Assembly: GCF_023476645.1 (NCBI RefSeq)
Contig: NZ_JAMCOJ010000009.1
Span: 1 to 64,000 of the forward strand
DNA from: Cellulophaga sp. 20_2_10
Lineage (GTDB): Bacteria > Bacteroidota > Bacteroidia > Flavobacteriales > Flavobacteriaceae
Length of the DNA: 64,000 nucleotides
Reading direction: 5' to 3'
The notes below the pieces were generated by a model, which was not told where the DNA came from, did not search any database, and saw only the letters and a program-made list of their open reading frames with translations. The translations under genes and the position numbers were made by a program. Positions 7,772 to 14,983 of the stretch are shown piece by piece; positions within the stretch are counted from its first letter, which is position 1; each line of letters starts with the position of its first letter.

Positions 7772-8332
7772 ATGAAAAAATTATCAGTAAGTATTTTAGC
7801 ATTAGTTTTTTCTGTTGCAGCATTAACAGCTCAAGAGAAAAAAATTAACACAGAAACAAGTAGTATTACTTGGAAAGGATATAAAGTAACAGGTTCTCAT
7901 GAAGGTTCTTTAGAGTTTAAAGAAGGTTCTTTAGTTTTTAAGAACGATAAATTATCTGCAGGTGAATTTGTAGTAGACATGACTACATTAGCTGTTACAG
8001 ATTTAGAAGGCGGAATGAAAGGTAAATTAGAAGGCCACTTAAAGTCTGATGATTTCTTTAGCACTGAAAAAAATACAACTTCTAAATTAGTTTTTACCGT
8101 TGGTAAAGCTACAGGGAAAAATGCTTACGCAGCAAAAGGTAAATTAACTATAAAAGGTATTACTAAGCCAGTAGACTTTACAATATCTGTATACGGTAGT
8201 AAAGCAACAGCAAGCTTAAAAATAGACAGAACTGAGTTTAATATTAAATACCAGTCTGGTAGTTTCATAGAAAACTTAGGAGATAAAGCTATTTATGATG
8301 ATTTTGATCTTGTTGTAGATTTACAATTCTAA
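7772..8332 (+). CDS. YceI family periplasmic lipid-binding-like protein
   Basis: 186-residue exported protein: signal peptide at 1-20 ending in LTAQ, then the YceI lipocalin-like beta-barrel with SSITWKGYKVTGSHEG and the conserved GKLTIKGITKPVDF strand pair. YceI barrels bind long isoprenoid or amide lipids in the periplasm. It forms a two-gene unit with the MarR regulator and is closed by a strong terminator at 8354-8375. The ligand is not predictable. Confidence 0.92.
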   Translation: MKKLSVSILALVFSVAALTAQEKKINTETSSITWKGYKVTGSHEGSLEFKEGSLVFKNDKLSAGEFVVDMTTLAVTDLEGGMKGKLEGHLKSDDFFSTEKNTTSKLVFTVGKATGKNAYAAKGKLTIKGITKPVDFTISVYGSKATASLKIDRTEFNIKYQSGSFIENLGDKAIYDDFDLVVDLQF

Positions 8333-8353
8333 AACATACTTTAAGATTGTTTT

Positions 8354-8381
8354 AAACCTCACTTTTGTGAGGTTTTTTATT
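8354..8381 (+). terminator. Rho-independent terminator after yceI-like gene
   Basis: Nine-base-pair stem AAACCTCAC (8354-8362) with GTGAGGTTT (8367-8375) around a TTTT loop, followed by a T-rich run. It separates the marR-yceI unit from the trp promoter. Confidence 0.9.
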
Positions 8382-8397
8382 TTTTATGAAACTCTAG

Positions 8398-8428
8398 TTG
8401 GGTATTATAAAATTCCTTTATATATTTG
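8398..8428 (+). promoter_or_regulatory. trp operon promoter (TTG-N20-TATATTTG)
   Basis: TTG at 8398-8400 and TATATTTG at 8421-8428, 20 bp apart, match the Bacteroidota TTG-N19-21-TAnnTTTG promoter. In mapped bacteroidetal promoters transcription starts about 4-7 bp past the box, which here is at or next to the leader-peptide ATG at 8434. Confidence 0.75.
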
Positions 8429-8433
8429 ACCTA

Positions 8434-8487
8434 ATGAAAATAACAACTAACATATGGTGGTGGAACAACTTACGTCAAACGTCGTGA
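8434..8487 (+). CDS. trpL: trp operon leader peptide
   Basis: 17-codon ORF, MKITTNIWWWNNLRQTS, with three consecutive TGG codons at 8455-8463 and a TGA stop at 8485-8487. A run of Trp codons between a trp promoter and an intrinsic terminator is the standard layout of ribosome-mediated attenuation: ribosomes stall there when charged tRNA-Trp is scarce. The ATG is only 5 bp past the -7 box, so the mRNA may be leaderless or nearly so. The stop codon lies inside the left arm of the proposed antiterminator. Confidence 0.85.
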   Translation: MKITTNIWWWNNLRQTS

Positions 8488-8548
8488 GCAAAGCATCATT
8501 GTAATCATATACATAAAAGGCTTGTCTATCACGACAAGCCTTTTTTTT
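8481..8548 (+). promoter_or_regulatory. trp attenuator: antiterminator and terminator
   Basis: Terminator: 12-bp stem 8515-8526 with 8533-8544, core AGGCTTGTC/GACAAGCCT, hexaloop, run of eight T (8541-8548). Competing antiterminator seen in the bases: GTCGTGA (8481-8487) is the exact complement of TCACGAC (8529-8535), extended by AAGC (8491-8494) with GCTT (8520-8523); it uses both arms of the terminator. A ribosome stalled on the Trp codons leaves 8481-8494 free; one reaching the stop codon at 8485 covers it. A short ACGT-CAA-ACGT hairpin (8472-8482) may be the pause element. Confidence 0.82.
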
Positions 8549-8570
8549 ATTTAAAAATTTAAAGTTTAAG

Positions 8571-9968
8571 ATGAAATATAATCTAACATCACACTACAAA
8601 AAAATATTAGCAGACACTATTACACCTGTTAGTATGTACTTAAAAATTAGAGATAAGTTTCCTAATAGCATTTTATTAGAAAGTAGCGACTACCACGCCA
8701 ATAATAATAGTTTTTCTTATATCTGTTGCAATCCTATTGCTTCTATTAAAATAGAGAATGAAACAATCCTAGAAAGCTACCCAGATGGTACTAGTCAAAT
8801 TACTACTATAGATGAAACTGTAGATGTTGCCACTGTGCTACACAACTTTAGCACTAAGTTTAGCTCTAGCAATAACGACTTTAAGTTTATAAACAATGGT
8901 CTTTTTGGCTATATGGCTTACGATTCTGTTCGTTATTTTGAAGATGTAAACATTACCAAAAAAGACAACTCTGTTACTATACCAGATATGTATTATGCGG
9001 TATATAAAAATGTAATTGCTGTTGATCATTTTAAAAATGAAGCATACATATTTGCACATACTTATAACACAGAAAACAACATTCCAGAAATAGAACAATT
9101 ATTAAACGTAAGAGATTTTGCTACTTACAATTTTTCTAAAACAGGAGAAGCAACATCTAACTTAACAGATAACGATTTTTTAGAACAGGTAGATTTAGCT
9201 AAAAAACATTGCCAACGTGGAGACGTTTTTCAATTGGTATTGTCTAGAAGGTTCTCTCAAGAGTTTAAAGGGGACGAATTTAATGTATACCGTGCCTTAC
9301 GCTCTGTAAACCCATCTCCTTACCTATTTTATTTTGATTATGGTGATTTTAAAATATTTGGTAGTTCACCAGAAGCACAAATTATTGTAAAAGACGGCAA
9401 AGCAGAAATACACCCAATTGCTGGCACATTTAAACGTACTGGTAACGACGAAAAAGATGCTATTCTTGCTAAAGAATTAACAGAGGACGACAAAGAAAAT
9501 AGCGAACATGTAATGCTAGTAGACTTGGCTAGAAACGATTTAAGCAGAAATGGGAATACGGTTACTGTAGAAAACTACAGAGAGGTTCAGTTTTTCTCTC
9601 ATGTAATTCACTTAGTATCTAAAGTTACAGGAATAAAGAAAAAAAACATACCTACAATGAAAGTTGTTGCAGATACCTTCCCTGCAGGTACACTTAGTGG
9701 GGCGCCAAAACATATGGCTATGCAACTTATAGAAAAATACGAAAAAACTAGTCGTGGTTACTATGGTGGTGCAATTGGTTTTATGGATTTTAGCGGAAAT
9801 TTTAATCACGCTATAATGATTAGAACTTTTCTTAGTAAAAACCATCAACTACATTACCAAGCTGGTGCTGGTTTAGTTGCTGCATCTAATCCAAAAGACG
9901 AACTACAAGAAACATACAACAAATTAGGAGCACTAACCAAAGCTTTAGAAATAGCTGAGAATATTTAA
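8571..9968 (+). CDS. trpE: Anthranilate synthase component I
   Basis: Chorismate-using large subunit of anthranilate synthase, 465 residues, cytoplasmic; makes anthranilate with ammonia from TrpG. The tryptophan feedback-site motif LLES is at residues 35-38. The catalytic half has DVFQLVLSRRF, the PSPYLFY block, PIAGTFKRTGN, DLARNDLSRNG, the FPAGTLSGAPK motif and the C-terminal YQAGAGLVAAS. It is the first structural gene after the attenuator and is followed by trpG after 4 bp. Retention of the LLES motif implies allosteric control in addition to attenuation. Confidence 0.97.
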   Translation: MKYNLTSHYKKILADTITPVSMYLKIRDKFPNSILLESSDYHANNNSFSYICCNPIASIKIENETILESYPDGTSQITTIDETVDVATVLHNFSTKFSSSNNDFKFINNGLFGYMAYDSVRYFEDVNITKKDNSVTIPDMYYAVYKNVIAVDHFKNEAYIFAHTYNTENNIPEIEQLLNVRDFATYNFSKTGEATSNLTDNDFLEQVDLAKKHCQRGDVFQLVLSRRFSQEFKGDEFNVYRALRSVNPSPYLFYFDYGDFKIFGSSPEAQIIVKDGKAEIHPIAGTFKRTGNDEKDAILAKELTEDDKENSEHVMLVDLARNDLSRNGNTVTVENYREVQFFSHVIHLVSKVTGIKKKNIPTMKVVADTFPAGTLSGAPKHMAMQLIEKYEKTSRGYYGGAIGFMDFSGNFNHAIMIRTFLSKNHQLHYQAGAGLVAASNPKDELQETYNKLGALTKALEIAENI

Positions 9969-9972
9969 GACG

Positions 9973-10536
9973 ATGAAAAAAATACTAGTTATAGATAATT
10001 ACGACAGTTTTACATACAATTTAGTGCACTACCTAGAAGATTTGGATTGTGATGTTACTGTAAAACGAAATGACCAACTTACACTTGAAGAAGTAGATGC
10101 TTTTGAAAAAATAGTACTCTCTCCAGGTCCTGGCATTCCGGATGAAGCAGGATTATTAAAAGAAATTATTGCTACATATGCACCTACTAAAACTATTTTG
10201 GGTGTTTGCTTAGGACAACAAGCCATTGGTGAAGTTTTTGGAGGATCTTTAATAAACCTAGAGCAAGTTTACCACGGTATTGCGACTACTATTACGGTTA
10301 TTAAAGATGATGTCTTGTTTGCTGGTTTAGGCAAAGAATTAAAAGTTGGTCGTTACCATTCTTGGGTTGTTAATCCAGATTTACCAGAAGTTCTAGAAGC
10401 TACTTCTGTTGATGAAAACGGACAAATAATGTCTTTACGCCATAAGGTTTATGATGTTAACGCAGTACAGTTTCACCCAGAGTCTGTATTAACTCCAGAA
10501 GGCAAAAAAATGCTAAAAAATTGGGTAAATAAGTAA
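9973..10536 (+). CDS. trpG: Anthranilate synthase component II (glutamine amidotransferase)
   Basis: 187-residue class I glutamine amidotransferase supplying ammonia to TrpE. It shows the NYDSFTYNL N-terminus, the SPGPG oxyanion-loop motif, the nucleophile Cys79 in GVCLGQQAIGE and the His-Glu pair in VQFHPES near the C-terminus. Many organisms use one such subunit for both anthranilate and 4-amino-4-deoxychorismate synthesis; whether this one does so cannot be decided here. It begins 4 bp after trpE. Confidence 0.97.
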   Translation: MKKILVIDNYDSFTYNLVHYLEDLDCDVTVKRNDQLTLEEVDAFEKIVLSPGPGIPDEAGLLKEIIATYAPTKTILGVCLGQQAIGEVFGGSLINLEQVYHGIATTITVIKDDVLFAGLGKELKVGRYHSWVVNPDLPEVLEATSVDENGQIMSLRHKVYDVNAVQFHPESVLTPEGKKMLKNWVNK

Positions 10537-10582
10537 AATAGATCGATATCAAAAATTTACGTATTTATTAAAAATATTAAAG

Positions 10583-11575
10583 ATGAAAACAATATTAAAT
10601 AGATTAATTAATCACGAAATTCTTGGAAAAGAAGATGCCAAAAATGTATTAGTAAACATTGCTAAGGGTGATTATAACACAAGTCAGATTGCAGCTTTCT
10701 TAACTGTTTATATGATGCGTAGCGTTACTATTGAAGAGTTAGAAGGTTTTAGAGATGCATTGCTAGACCTTTGCTTAGCCGTAGATTTATCTGCATATAA
10801 TCCAGTAGATTTATGTGGTACTGGTGGCGATGGTAAAGACACTTTTAATATTTCTACACTTGCCTCTTTTGTTACTGCTGGCGCTGGCATTAAAGTTACC
10901 AAACATGGTAACTACGGTGTCTCTAGCAAATGTGGCAGTAGCAATGTAATGGAATCTTTAGGAATAAAATTTAGTAGCGATGCTGGTTTCTTAGAAAAAA
11001 CAATAGACCAAGCTGGTATTTGCGTATTACACGCTCCCCTTTTTCACCCAGCTATGAAAAATGTTGCACCAATACGTAAAGAGTTGGCTGTAAAAACATT
11101 CTTTAACATGTTAGGACCTATGGTAAACCCTGCCTTTCCTAAAAACCAAATGGTAGGTGTTTTCAATTTAGAGTTGGCTAGGATGTATGGGTATCTTTAT
11201 CAAAATACAGATAAAAACTTTACTGTTTTACACGCCTTAGATGGGTATGATGAAATTAGCTTAACAGGGAACACAAAGACAATCTCTCGTTTATCAGAAA
11301 GTATGCTTAAACCAGAAGATTTTGGAGTGCAGCAAATAAAACAATCAGATATTGTTGGCGGTGATACTATTGATGCTTCTGCTAAAATATTTGTAGACAT
11401 CTTAAGTGGTAAAGGCACAGAACCACAAAATAATGTTGTTTGTGCTAATGCAGGTATTGCAATTGCTACAGTAGAAAACATAAGCCCAAGAGAAGGCTTT
11501 TTAAAAGCACAAGAATCTTTGCGTAGCGGTAAAGGATTAGAAGCATTAAAAAAATTACAAAAGCTAAGTGCATAA
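10583..11575 (+). CDS. trpD: Anthranilate phosphoribosyltransferase
   Basis: 330-residue enzyme joining PRPP to anthranilate. It has the glycine-rich PRPP loop GTGGDG, the KHGNYGVSS substrate-binding segment, and LGPMVNPA, all diagnostic. The gene is 46 bp after trpG and abuts trpC directly (stop codon ends at 11575, trpC ATG starts at 11576). Besides the biosynthetic flow, it could reuse anthranilate released by the kynureninase encoded at 52584 if that enzyme cleaves kynurenine itself; this is inference. Confidence 0.97.
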   Translation: MKTILNRLINHEILGKEDAKNVLVNIAKGDYNTSQIAAFLTVYMMRSVTIEELEGFRDALLDLCLAVDLSAYNPVDLCGTGGDGKDTFNISTLASFVTAGAGIKVTKHGNYGVSSKCGSSNVMESLGIKFSSDAGFLEKTIDQAGICVLHAPLFHPAMKNVAPIRKELAVKTFFNMLGPMVNPAFPKNQMVGVFNLELARMYGYLYQNTDKNFTVLHALDGYDEISLTGNTKTISRLSESMLKPEDFGVQQIKQSDIVGGDTIDASAKIFVDILSGKGTEPQNNVVCANAGIAIATVENISPREGFLKAQESLRSGKGLEALKKLQKLSA

Positions 11576-12358
11576 ATGGATATCTTAGAAAAAATAGTAC
11601 GCGACAAACGCAAGGAGGTAGATTTAAGAAAATCACTTATTCCTGTTTCTCAATTAGAGGCTTCTGTTTTATTTAACAGACAAACAAGTTCTTTAGCTAC
11701 GGCATTAAAAAATAGTAGTTCTGGTATTATTGCCGAGCACAAAAGAAGGTCGCCTTCTAAAGCCGTAATAAATAACAGTCTGTCTGTGCAAGATGTAGCT
11801 ACAGGTTACCAAGGTGCAGGTGTTTGTGGTATGTCAGTTTTAACAGATGGCAAATATTTTGGTGGTTCTTTAGACGACTTACTAACCGCAAGAGCAGCTG
11901 TAAAAATGCCGCTATTGCGTAAAGAGTTTATTATAGATGAATATCAAATACTAGAAGCTAAAGCCTACGGTGCAGATGTTATTTTATTAATTGCAGCCAT
12001 ACTTACTAGAGACGAAATAAAACAGTTTTCTGAGTTTGCTAAAAGTTTAAATTTAGATGTTTTATTAGAGGTACACAACGAGGAAGAATTGCACAAATCT
12101 ATTATGCCTAGTTTAGATATGCTAGGTGTAAACAACCGTAACCTAAAAACATTTACAGTAAGTTTAGATACTAGTAAATCTTTATCTTCTTTAATACCAA
12201 ACGACTTTGTAAAGGTTTCTGAAAGTGGTATTAGCAGTATTGAAGCAATTAAAGAATTACAACCTTATGGTTACAAAGGTTTTTTAATAGGTGAAAATTT
12301 TATGAAAACTGATAATCCTGGCGATAGTGCTACCAATTTTATTACATCTTTATCCTAA
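11576..12358 (+). CDS. trpC: Indole-3-glycerol phosphate synthase
   Basis: 260-residue (beta-alpha)8 barrel closing the indole ring. Visible motifs are IIAEHKRRSPSK near residue 50, LLRKEFIIDEYQI, VLLEVHNEEEL, LGVNNRNLKTF and the phosphate-binding KVSESGIS. Its ATG follows the trpD stop with no gap and its stop overlaps the trpF start, which suggests translational coupling. It is a separate gene, not the TrpC-TrpF fusion of enteric bacteria. Confidence 0.97.
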   Translation: MDILEKIVRDKRKEVDLRKSLIPVSQLEASVLFNRQTSSLATALKNSSSGIIAEHKRRSPSKAVINNSLSVQDVATGYQGAGVCGMSVLTDGKYFGGSLDDLLTARAAVKMPLLRKEFIIDEYQILEAKAYGADVILLIAAILTRDEIKQFSEFAKSLNLDVLLEVHNEEELHKSIMPSLDMLGVNNRNLKTFTVSLDTSKSLSSLIPNDFVKVSESGISSIEAIKELQPYGYKGFLIGENFMKTDNPGDSATNFITSLS

Positions 12359-12999
12359 TGAAACTAAAAGTTTGTGGTATGAAGTACCTTGAAAATATGG
12401 AAGCCGTTGCTGCATTGCAACCAGACTATCTAGGTTTTATATTTTGGGAACCTTCTTCTCGATTTTTTAATGGCAAAATGGGTAACATTCCTAAAAACAT
12501 TAAAAAAGTTGGTGTTTTTGTTGATGCTGATTTGGATTATGTTGTAAATCGTATTAACGAGTATAATTTAGATGCCGTACAATTACACGGTAAAGAGTCT
12601 CCGGAGTTTTGTAAAGGATTACGAAATTCTAGCCTTGGATTAAAAGGGAAGCAACCGCAAATAATAAAAGTTTTTTCTATTAAAGATAGTTTTGACTTTA
12701 GCAGTCTTAGTCCTTTTGAAAAAGTGTGCGACTACTTTTTATTTGATACAAAAGGAAAATTGCCTGGTGGAAATGGATACACTTTTAACTGGTCTGTTTT
12801 AGAAAACTACCCATCTACCAAACCCTACTTTTTAAGTGGTGGTATTGGCATTAAGGATGTAGATAAGGTGAAAGACTTTTTAAAGACTACTGCTTCTAAA
12901 TACTGCGTTGCTTTAGATGTAAATAGCAGTTTTGAAATAGAACCAGGATTAAAGAATATTGAAAAATTAAACGAATTTAAAACAGCATTAAGTATCTAA
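12358..12999 (+). CDS. trpF: Phosphoribosylanthranilate isomerase
   Basis: 213-residue (beta-alpha)8 isomerase converting phosphoribosylanthranilate to CdRP. The catalytic cysteine lies in the N-terminal KVCGMK; VQLHGKES, FLFDTKGKLPGGNG and FLSGGIG are also seen. Its start overlaps the trpC stop by one base (TAATG). Slightly diverged insertions around residue 95-105 are within normal family variation. Confidence 0.96.
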   Translation: MKLKVCGMKYLENMEAVAALQPDYLGFIFWEPSSRFFNGKMGNIPKNIKKVGVFVDADLDYVVNRINEYNLDAVQLHGKESPEFCKGLRNSSLGLKGKQPQIIKVFSIKDSFDFSSLSPFEKVCDYFLFDTKGKLPGGNGYTFNWSVLENYPSTKPYFLSGGIGIKDVDKVKDFLKTTASKYCVALDVNSSFEIEPGLKNIEKLNEFKTALSI

Positions 13000-13030
13000 A
13001 TCAAGTGCTTAAAACTTAATACTAATTCAG

Positions 13031-14212
13031 ATGAATTATAATGTAACAGAAAAAGGATATTACGGAACATTTGGCGGTGCCTATATTCCAGAAATGTTAT
13101 ATCCTAACGTAGAAAATCTACGCCAAAATTACCTTAAAGTTATGGCAGAGCCAGACTTTAAAGCAGAGTTCGATCAGCTTTTAAAAGATTACGTAGGCAG
13201 GCCGTCTCCTTTGTACTTTGCAAAAAGATTGTCTGAGAAGTACAATACAAAAGTATACTTAAAAAGAGAAGATCTTAACCACACCGGTGCACACAAGATT
13301 AACAATACTATTGGTCAAATTTTAATGGCCAAAAAGTTAGGTAAACACCGTATTATTGCAGAGACTGGTGCTGGTCAGCATGGTGTTGCTACAGCTACTG
13401 TTTGTGCTCTAATGGGTATGGATTGCGTAGTGTATATGGGTGAAATTGATATTGCCCGCCAAGCACCAAACGTTGCTCGCATGAAAATGTTAGGCGCAGA
13501 GGTTAGACCTGCACTTTCTGGTAGTAAAACACTTAAAGATGCAACTAATGAGGCTATTCGCGATTGGATTAACAATCCTGTAGATACCCATTACATTATT
13601 GGTTCTGCTATTGGGCCACATCCTTATCCAGATATGGTTACTAGATTTCAATCGATTATATCAGAAGAAATAAAATGGCAGCTAAAAGAAAAAGAAGGTC
13701 GTGAAAATCCTGATTACGTAGTTGCATGTATTGGTGGTGGCAGTAATGCTGCTGGTGCTTATTATCACTTTTTACACGAAGAAGAAGTTGGCATTATTGC
13801 TGTAGAAGCTGCTGGTAAAGGCATTAATTCTGGAGAAAGTGCTGCTACGTCTGCACTTGGTAAAGAGGGTGTTATACACGGTTGTAAAACATTACTAATG
13901 CAAACGCAAGACGGACAAATTACAGAGCCCTACTCTATTTCTGCCGGCTTAGATTACCCTGGAGTTGGACCATTACACGCTCATTTATACAAAACAGGAA
14001 GAGGAGAGTTTTATTCCGCTACAGATGATGAGGCTATGCAATCTGGTTTAGAGTTAACAAAATTAGAAGGCATTATCCCAGCCATAGAAAGTAGCCACGC
14101 TCTAGCCATTTTTAAACATAAAACTTTTAAACCAGAGGATGTGGTTGTACTAAGTTTATCTGGTCGTGGTGATAAAGATTTAGATAATTATATTAAATAT
14201 TTCAACTTATAA
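13031..14212 (+). CDS. trpB: Tryptophan synthase beta chain
   Basis: 393-residue PLP enzyme condensing indole with serine. It has GGAYIPE near the N-terminus, the PLP lysine in HTGAHKINN, ETGAGQHGVA, the glycine-rich phosphate loop GGGSNAAG and the terminal SLSGRGDKD. It is the main TrpB1 type that pairs with TrpA (393 residues) rather than the longer TrpB2. trpA follows after 9 bp. Confidence 0.98.
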   Translation: MNYNVTEKGYYGTFGGAYIPEMLYPNVENLRQNYLKVMAEPDFKAEFDQLLKDYVGRPSPLYFAKRLSEKYNTKVYLKREDLNHTGAHKINNTIGQILMAKKLGKHRIIAETGAGQHGVATATVCALMGMDCVVYMGEIDIARQAPNVARMKMLGAEVRPALSGSKTLKDATNEAIRDWINNPVDTHYIIGSAIGPHPYPDMVTRFQSIISEEIKWQLKEKEGRENPDYVVACIGGGSNAAGAYYHFLHEEEVGIIAVEAAGKGINSGESAATSALGKEGVIHGCKTLLMQTQDGQITEPYSISAGLDYPGVGPLHAHLYKTGRGEFYSATDDEAMQSGLELTKLEGIIPAIESSHALAIFKHKTFKPEDVVVLSLSGRGDKDLDNYIKYFNL

Positions 14213-14221
14213 AATTGTATA

Positions 14222-14983
14222 ATGAATAGAATTAATCAAAAAATGCAAGAAGACAAAAAACTTCTTTCATTGTACTTTACAGCAGGTTACCCAGAGCTTA
14301 ACAATACAGTTAAAATAATTGAAGATTTAGAAGCTAGTGGTATAGATATGATTGAAATAGGATTGCCTTTTAGTGATCCGTTAGCAGATGGTCCAACCAT
14401 ACAGAATAGCTCTACTATTGCACTTAAAAATGGTATGACCACCAATTTACTTTTTGAGCAATTAAAAGATATACGCAAAACAGTTTCTATTCCTTTAATT
14501 GTAATGGGGTATTTTAACCCAATGTTACAATACGGCGTTGAAGCCTTTTGTGCAAAATGCGCAGAAGTTGGTATAGATGGTTTAATTATGCCAGATTTAC
14601 CTTTGGCTGTTTACCAAGATGAATACGAGTCTATTTTTAAAAAATACAACCTAAAAAACATCTTTTTAATTACACCACAAACTAGCGATGAGCGTATTAA
14701 ACAAATAGATGATGCATCTGACGCCTTTATTTATATGGTAAGTTCCGCTAGTGTTACAGGTTCTAAATCTGGTTTTGGAGATGAGCAAACTGCGTATTTT
14801 AAACGTATTGCTACTATGAAACTTAAAAACCCACAAGTAATAGGTTTCGGTATAAACAATAACGAAACATACACCCAAGCTACAGAAAGCGCAAAAGGTG
14901 CAATTATTGGCTCAGCCTTTATAAAACATCTTACAGAAAATGGTGTAAATACCATTAAAGAGTTTGTACAAAAAATAAGATAA
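14222..14983 (+). CDS. trpA: Tryptophan synthase alpha chain
   Basis: 253-residue barrel that cleaves indole-3-glycerol phosphate and passes indole to TrpB. The catalytic Glu and Asp lie in MIEIGLPFSDPLADGP; GLIMPDLPL and GFGINNNE are also diagnostic. It is the last gene of the complete trpEGDCFBA set and is followed by a terminator at 15072-15103. Confidence 0.97.
   Translation: MNRINQKMQEDKKLLSLYFTAGYPELNNTVKIIEDLEASGIDMIEIGLPFSDPLADGPTIQNSSTIALKNGMTTNLLFEQLKDIRKTVSIPLIVMGYFNPMLQYGVEAFCAKCAEVGIDGLIMPDLPLAVYQDEYESIFKKYNLKNIFLITPQTSDERIKQIDDASDAFIYMVSSASVTGSKSGFGDEQTAYFKRIATMKLKNPQVIGFGINNNETYTQATESAKGAIIGSAFIKHLTENGVNTIKEFVQKIR

Follow-up and report, generated by a model that had tools for sequence, protein, structure and literature searches.

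A Bacteroid-trp leader upstream of the trp operon of Cellulophaga sp. 20_2_10: a probable ribosome-mediated attenuator with a candidate loop-directed antiterminator and a predicted leaderless start

The window analyzed here, a stretch of 64,000 nucleotides from Cellulophaga sp. 20_2_10, carries upstream of its tryptophan synthesis genes a member of the Bacteroid-trp family (RF01692) that very probably works by ribosome-mediated transcription attenuation. This reading is built on the parts of the element, their conservation and covariation, their spacing and their predicted folds, from which we infer ribosome stalling, folding kinetics and regulation by tryptophan. The element is already catalogued as a regular RF01692 member and the finding is mainly one of confirmation, but the Rfam model is devoid of two of the details described below, an antiterminator helix and a predicted start at the tip of the transcript. 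Together with possible alternative layouts in other lineages, the antiterminator and the predicted leaderless leader of the window's clade add testable detail on a large and little-studied family.

The leader element and its genomic setting

The first-pass annotation of this DNA had described a leader ORF with adjacent Trp codons, a 7-base complement extended by AAGC and GCUU, and a 12-bp terminator followed by eight T, and every one of its coordinates was confirmed. The parts of the element and the genes downstream are the following:

8434-8487, + strand: trp leader peptide ORF of 17 codons, MKITTNIWWWNNLRQTS, with start ATG at 8434 and stop UGA at 8485-8487
8455-8463, + strand: three Trp codons (TGG x3) read from the sequence, the proposed stall site
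8469-8474, + strand: arm 1 of the protector hairpin, CUUACG, which hides arm 2 according to the minimum free energy fold and covariation
8481-8487, + strand: arm 2, GTCGTGA, the 5' strand of the antiterminator as judged from covariation, spacing and folds
8482-8487, + strand: core of arm 2, UCGUGA, which includes the leader stop codon
8491-8494, + strand: AAGC, a possible antiterminator extension with GCTT at 8520-8523 in the predicted fold, without covariation support
8515-8548, + strand: intrinsic terminator, with a 12-bp stem (8515-8526/8533-8544), a 6-nt loop and T8 at 8541-8548
8529-8535, + strand: antiterminator 3' strand TCACGAC, the exact reverse complement of GTCGTGA at 8481-8487, identified through covariation
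8571-9968, + strand: trpE, the first gene 3' of the leader (Pfam Anth_synt_I_N and Chorismate_bind)
9973-14983, + strand: trpG, trpD, trpC, trpF, trpB and trpA, named from their ORFs and Pfam domains

The antiterminator 3' strand is made up of the last four nucleotides of the terminator loop and the first three of the terminator 3' arm. The leader directly precedes an operon in the order trpE-G-D-C-F-B-A, with 83 nt between the leader stop codon and trpE, and is itself preceded by a YceI-like gene, a terminator-like site and a MarR-type gene, as assigned by Pfam domains and a terminator scan. That scan, covering positions 8300-8650, returned two sites where shuffles averaged 0.0, the second one being the upstream site at 8354-8375. 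The leader region is unusually stable when folded (8434-8555; minimum free energy z = -5.05), with none of 200 dinucleotide shuffles as good, and the duplex between arm 2 and the terminator is worth -16.0 kcal/mol where shuffles average -8.9, with one shuffle in 100 doing as well. A search for His-codon leaders in the same genome gave 113 candidate matches.

Family identity and distribution

The RF01692 model matches positions 8414-8526 over its whole length (model positions 1-131 of 131) with 61.6 bits against a gathering cut-off of 49, and it is the sole Rfam family above cut-off in a scan of the whole window, where the RF00513 Trp_leader model remained sub-threshold (20.6 bits against a cut-off of 41). 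The features that define membership in RF01692, namely the score, trp synthesis genes downstream and a short ORF with consecutive Trp codons, are all present. The window shares with the model a leader ORF, a protector hairpin, a terminator 5' arm and a location 5' of trp genes, but the model stops at GGCUUGUC (8526) and hence short of both the terminator 3' arm and the antiterminator 3' strand. A single RF01692 element occurs in the window's own genome. Under strict filters, at the cost of weak matches, 208 of the 299 genomes surveyed in the same taxonomic family (own genome included) gave a match and the other 91 gave none; under these filters, matches also came from 47 of 296 genomes sampled from the order and from 42 of 395 sampled from the phylum, these samples overlapping.

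Bacteroid-trp was named by Weinberg et al. 2010 (PMC2864571), where Table 1 assigns it to the Bacteroidetes and enters a 'y' both for RNA and for cis-regulatory function. A passage of PMC6414381 notes its resemblance to the E. coli leader in Flavobacterium psychrophilum, and a passage of PMC9723704 mentions strong clues to leader peptide attenuation 5' of amino-acid operons in that species. In the open-licence literature, RF01692 was found only in the 2010 paper, and no study devoted to the Bacteroid-trp attenuator was found among open-licence work on attenuation in the Bacteroidetes.

Comparative set

For comparative analysis we assembled 193 loci, including the window. Four repeats were removed and one locus (L131) failed the final leader-and-terminator finder, the terminator part of which had been loosened to admit weak T runs, leaving 188 loci; read by eye and left out of all counts, L131 presents WWW and AGUGAG, and UUCACU in its terminator loop. 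The loci were chosen as Rfam hits, stronger ones first, and conservation within the model (Trp codons, arm 2 and terminator 5' arm) is therefore partly selected, while the terminator loop and 3' arm, including UCACGAC, lie outside it. A leader ORF with two or three adjacent Trp codons 5' of a terminator was identified, partly by virtue of this selection, in 188 of 189 loci; the adjacent Trp codons number three in 182 of the 188 and two in the remaining 6, and the leader start codon is ATG in 183, TTG in 3 and GTG in 2. A TrpE match is present in all of the first 149 loci. Four of the 193 loci (L178, L180, L181 and L182) carry a Bacteroid-trp element with no TrpE match in the stretch examined.

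Conservation and covariation of the antiterminator

The covariation alignment comprises 187 distinct rows, and its 200 shuffle controls ignore relatedness among them. The antiterminator core, UCGUGA:UCACGA (pairs of 8482-8487), shows standard pairing in 1092 of 1122 cells (97%). Across all seven pairs of the arm, 89.9% of cells are paired as compared to 88.7% in shuffles, and 16 cells, distributed over five pairs, present two-sided changes against a shuffle mean of 1.8; none of the 200 shuffles reaches either value. Sliding the partner strand by one or two columns reduces pairing to 9-48%. The -2 slide still yields 14 two-sided cells, as against 16 in register, yet only 36% of its cells pair; the two-sided count is thus weak evidence when taken alone and would not be decisive for the antiterminator. 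The clearest case of co-change is that of two loci from one genus, L101 and L149, in which arm and loop have become UCGCAA and UUGCGA. Co-varying pairs in relatives had been named beforehand as a check on the antiterminator pairing, and two-sided changes were indeed seen there.

Beyond the core, conservation is uneven. Among the 147 loci of the initial 149 that had the core terminator, TCACGAC is exact in 136; 45 of the 147 have the complete 7-base complement and 95 have six of its seven bases, the first base being the most variable. The full 7-bp arm was accordingly rejected as a family feature. Of the antiterminator as originally annotated, the core finds comparative support; the G8481:C8535 pair, with standard pairing in 85 of the 187 rows, does not, nor does the AAGC:GCUU extension, which pairs about as often as in shuffles (71.0 versus 70.3%, with 9 of 200 shuffles as high). 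The outer part of the protector hairpin (8453-8462 with 8494-8503) was discarded on similar figures (57.2 versus 56.6%, with 17 of 200 shuffles as high). Protector arm 1 (8469-8474) is paired in 64.2% of cells against 58.9% in shuffles, with 77 two-sided cells against 31.5, and the terminator stem is paired in 98.4% of cells, with two-sided changes at 9 of its 12 pairs. When loci were analyzed individually, no more than 5 of 100 dinucleotide shuffles of the arm region equalled the duplex between arm and terminator in 144 of the 188, and no more than 10 of 100 did so in 168.

Stop codon, spacing and ribosome geometry

The core could be recognized by pattern in 183 of the 188 loci, the exceptions being L116, L179, L183, L184 and L185, and in 174 of these 183 it starts 17-19 nt past the last Trp codon. 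Where the core is translated, each of the three frames is represented (105, 35 and 9 loci), the spacing being kept whichever the frame, and its letters thus look to be kept for the RNA and not for the peptide. In 110 of the 183 loci the leader stop codon and the core overlap; in 34 the stop codon comes first and in 39 the core does, so a stop codon within the arm was rejected as a requirement. The first-pass annotation had been right to place the stop codon within the antiterminator arm of the window, but had regarded this arrangement as peculiar to the sequence at hand, when it is that of RF01692 and the overlap is the usual state in the family.

The footprint of a ribosome extends from about 18 nt upstream to about 12 nt downstream of the first base of its A-site codon. 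Applying this footprint by position only, a ribosome at the stop codon would cover the core in 180 of 183 loci, and a ribosome whose A site holds the last Trp codon would leave the core free in 182 of 183. The ribosome geometry proposed for the window in the earlier annotation consequently fits nearly all of its relatives, and it is this coverage of the core by a ribosome at the stop codon that, judging from positions, appears to be the feature kept.

Folding order and proposed mechanism

Predicted folds place the choice between the two structures within a narrow interval of transcription. If folding excludes 8434-8474, the antiterminator probability is 0.99 with transcription at 8535 or 8538, 0.14 at 8541 and 0.0 at 8544. 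The terminator reaches 0.97 if everything up to 8498 is left out and 0.96 if nothing is, and in an untranslated leader with transcription at 8535 the antiterminator probability is 0.10. At equilibrium the terminator (-17.2 kcal/mol) outcompetes the antiterminator (-12.6 kcal/mol) and wins from 8541 onwards. Antitermination must therefore be kinetic, and the antiterminator would have about six bases of transcription without a strong competitor.

In the proposed mechanism, scarcity of charged tRNA-Trp would stall the ribosome at 8455-8463, covering arm 1 and leaving arm 2 (8481-8487) free to pair with the emerging terminator loop and upper 3' arm (8529-8535); this pairing would delay nucleation of the terminator and allow RNA polymerase to read into trpE. 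With enough tryptophan, the ribosome would reach the UGA at 8485-8487 and cover arm 2, and the terminator would form. It would also form in the absence of translation, with the protector hairpin holding arm 2. Sequence, folds and covariation agree on a terminator and an antiterminator that are mutually exclusive, as in ribosome-mediated trp attenuators, and the attenuation already suggested for this leader finds support both in the covariation among relatives and in the positions available to the ribosome.

The window shares with the enterobacterial trp leader (RF00513) a leader peptide with Trp codons and the 1:2, 2:3 and 3:4 alternative pairings known from E. coli. It differs in presenting three Trp codons, whereas E. 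coli has two, and in the target of its antiterminator core, which is the loop and 3' arm of the terminator instead of the terminator 5' arm.

Alternative explanations

The reading that bears most directly on the antiterminator is that it might be a by-product, with UCGUGA kept for the protector hairpin, as drawn in the Rfam model. The protector strand at 8469-8474 does covary with arm 2, position 8481 varies regardless of 8535 and the sliding control weakens the two-sided count. Nevertheless, TCACGAC is almost invariant among the loci with a core terminator even though its loop part is needless for either the protector or the terminator stem, and in L101 and L149 it has changed in step with arm 2, all of which makes a mere by-product very unlikely. 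That the leader acts instead at the level of translation, with the leader ribosome passing on to trpE, is highly improbable. Re-initiation at leader ORFs has been proposed, in a passage of PMC4833913, with a peak at 11-14 bp in the Bacteroidetes, but the leader stop codon stands 83 nt before trpE, and the interval contains a strong terminator with its T run, in which 9 of the 12 stem pairs have two-sided changes among relatives. As for a ligand- or protein-binding leader, be it a riboswitch or TRAP-like, in which the short ORF would be incidental, no support for it was found in the window, where the trp peptide leader is the sole Rfam family above cut-off; with adjacent Trp codons in 188 of 189 loci and a conserved distance between these codons and the arm, it is scarcely credible.

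Promoter and predicted leaderless start

Transcription of the leader in the window would begin at the AUG or one base ahead of it, as predicted from the following elements:

8398-8401, + strand: -33 promoter box TTGG (TTTG in the consensus of 28 loci), 19 nt before the -7 box
8421-8428, + strand: -7 promoter box TATATTTG (Bacteroidetes consensus TAnnTTTG)
8433, or 8434 (the A of the leader AUG), + strand: predicted transcription start, derived from the box position, with a 5' UTR of 0-1 nt

A passage of PMC9723704 places the promoter box at -12 to -5; given the gap of 5 nt between box and start codon, transcription would begin at 8433, the base preceding the AUG. Sigma-70-like sites were set aside, as the Bacteroidetes are said to lack those boxes in a passage of PMC7366714. 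In 180 of the 188 loci a TAnnTTTG motif lies no more than 60 nt 5' of the leader start; among background windows further upstream, 28 of 561 contain it. The gap between the -7 box and the start codon is exactly 5 nt in 28 of the 188 loci, the window among them, and 16-20 nt in 84, the rest being spread; the 28 gap-5 loci also present position-specific conservation of a TTTG-like box, at positions -36 to -33 relative to the start codon. In a tree of TrpE built from 184 loci, the 24 rows closest to and including the window comprise 19 with a gap of 5, 3 with a gap of 7-8 and 2 without the motif, and the gap classes require at least 20 changes over the whole tree. The 5-nt gap is not quite the mark of one clade only, given that 9 of the 28 loci are placed elsewhere than among the near kin of the window, L179, L183 and L184 even in another family. 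A leaderless start as a genome-wide habit found no support, TAnnTTTG-N5-ATG being present 98 times and its reversed control 115 times, and a passage of PMC9723704 puts leaderless mRNAs at only 5.5% in F. psychrophilum.

The leaderless trp leader of the window is thus a prediction from its promoter box, and a variant with precedent, since the trp leader of Sinorhizobium meliloti starts with its own ATG: in a passage of PMC7298713 the trpL transcript, encoding a Trp leader peptide 5' of trpE as in the window, begins with the trpL ATG and can act as a leaderless mRNA. That system belongs to another phylum and has a different sequence, and its start is reported there from earlier work, whereas that of the window is predicted from its promoter box. 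On the whole, though with considerable reserve, we lean towards a leaderless trp attenuator, found in the window's clade and scattered outside it, with a loop-directed kinetic antiterminator, in a family that has moved between loop-directed and classic layouts. In such an attenuator, the arrangement TTTG-N19-TATATTTG-N5-AUG would keep a constant 5-nt distance between promoter and leader start codon, and the ribosome would load on the 5' end of the RNA emerging from the polymerase, in a group reported to be without Shine-Dalgarno sequences. Arm 2 would then be directed against the apical loop and upper 3' arm of the terminator and block its nucleation kinetically; in the classic layout it would pair with the terminator 5' arm, and the family may have switched between the two.

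Outlying lineages

Several lineages depart from the common core. In five loci of other families (L150, L155, L173, L178 and L182), arms close to GUCGU(A/G)AG pair with differing loops, the loop of L178 being CUUUACGGC and the pairing of L155 containing one mismatch; between 1 and 14 of 100 shuffles are as good as these duplexes. A second group (L098, L117, L140, L188 and L191) has its core shifted by two bases, GUGAG(A/G) with UCUCAC/U, and L186 and L187 share the shifted core with one wobble pair more; shuffles as good again number 1-14 of 100 in this GUGAG group. Arm 2 seems to pair with the terminator 5' arm instead in L179 and L183, from another family of the order, and mainly to do so in L180 and L181, from the class; L184 carries the leader of L179. 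The corresponding shuffles as good are 0-1 of 100 for L180 and L181, 7 for L183 and 19 for L179, with 16 for L185. Some outlying lineages therefore seem to pair arm 2 with the 5' side of the terminator, in a different layout, with duplexes that are weak against shuffles in L179 and L183. In several outlying loci, L098, L123, L178, L179 and L185, the duplex does not rise clearly above shuffles (14-19 of 100 as good). Over roughly positions 100-360 of its locus, L185 further presents a tandem trp attenuator 5' of a trpE-like gene, with two WWW leader peptides arranged in series and a terminator for each.
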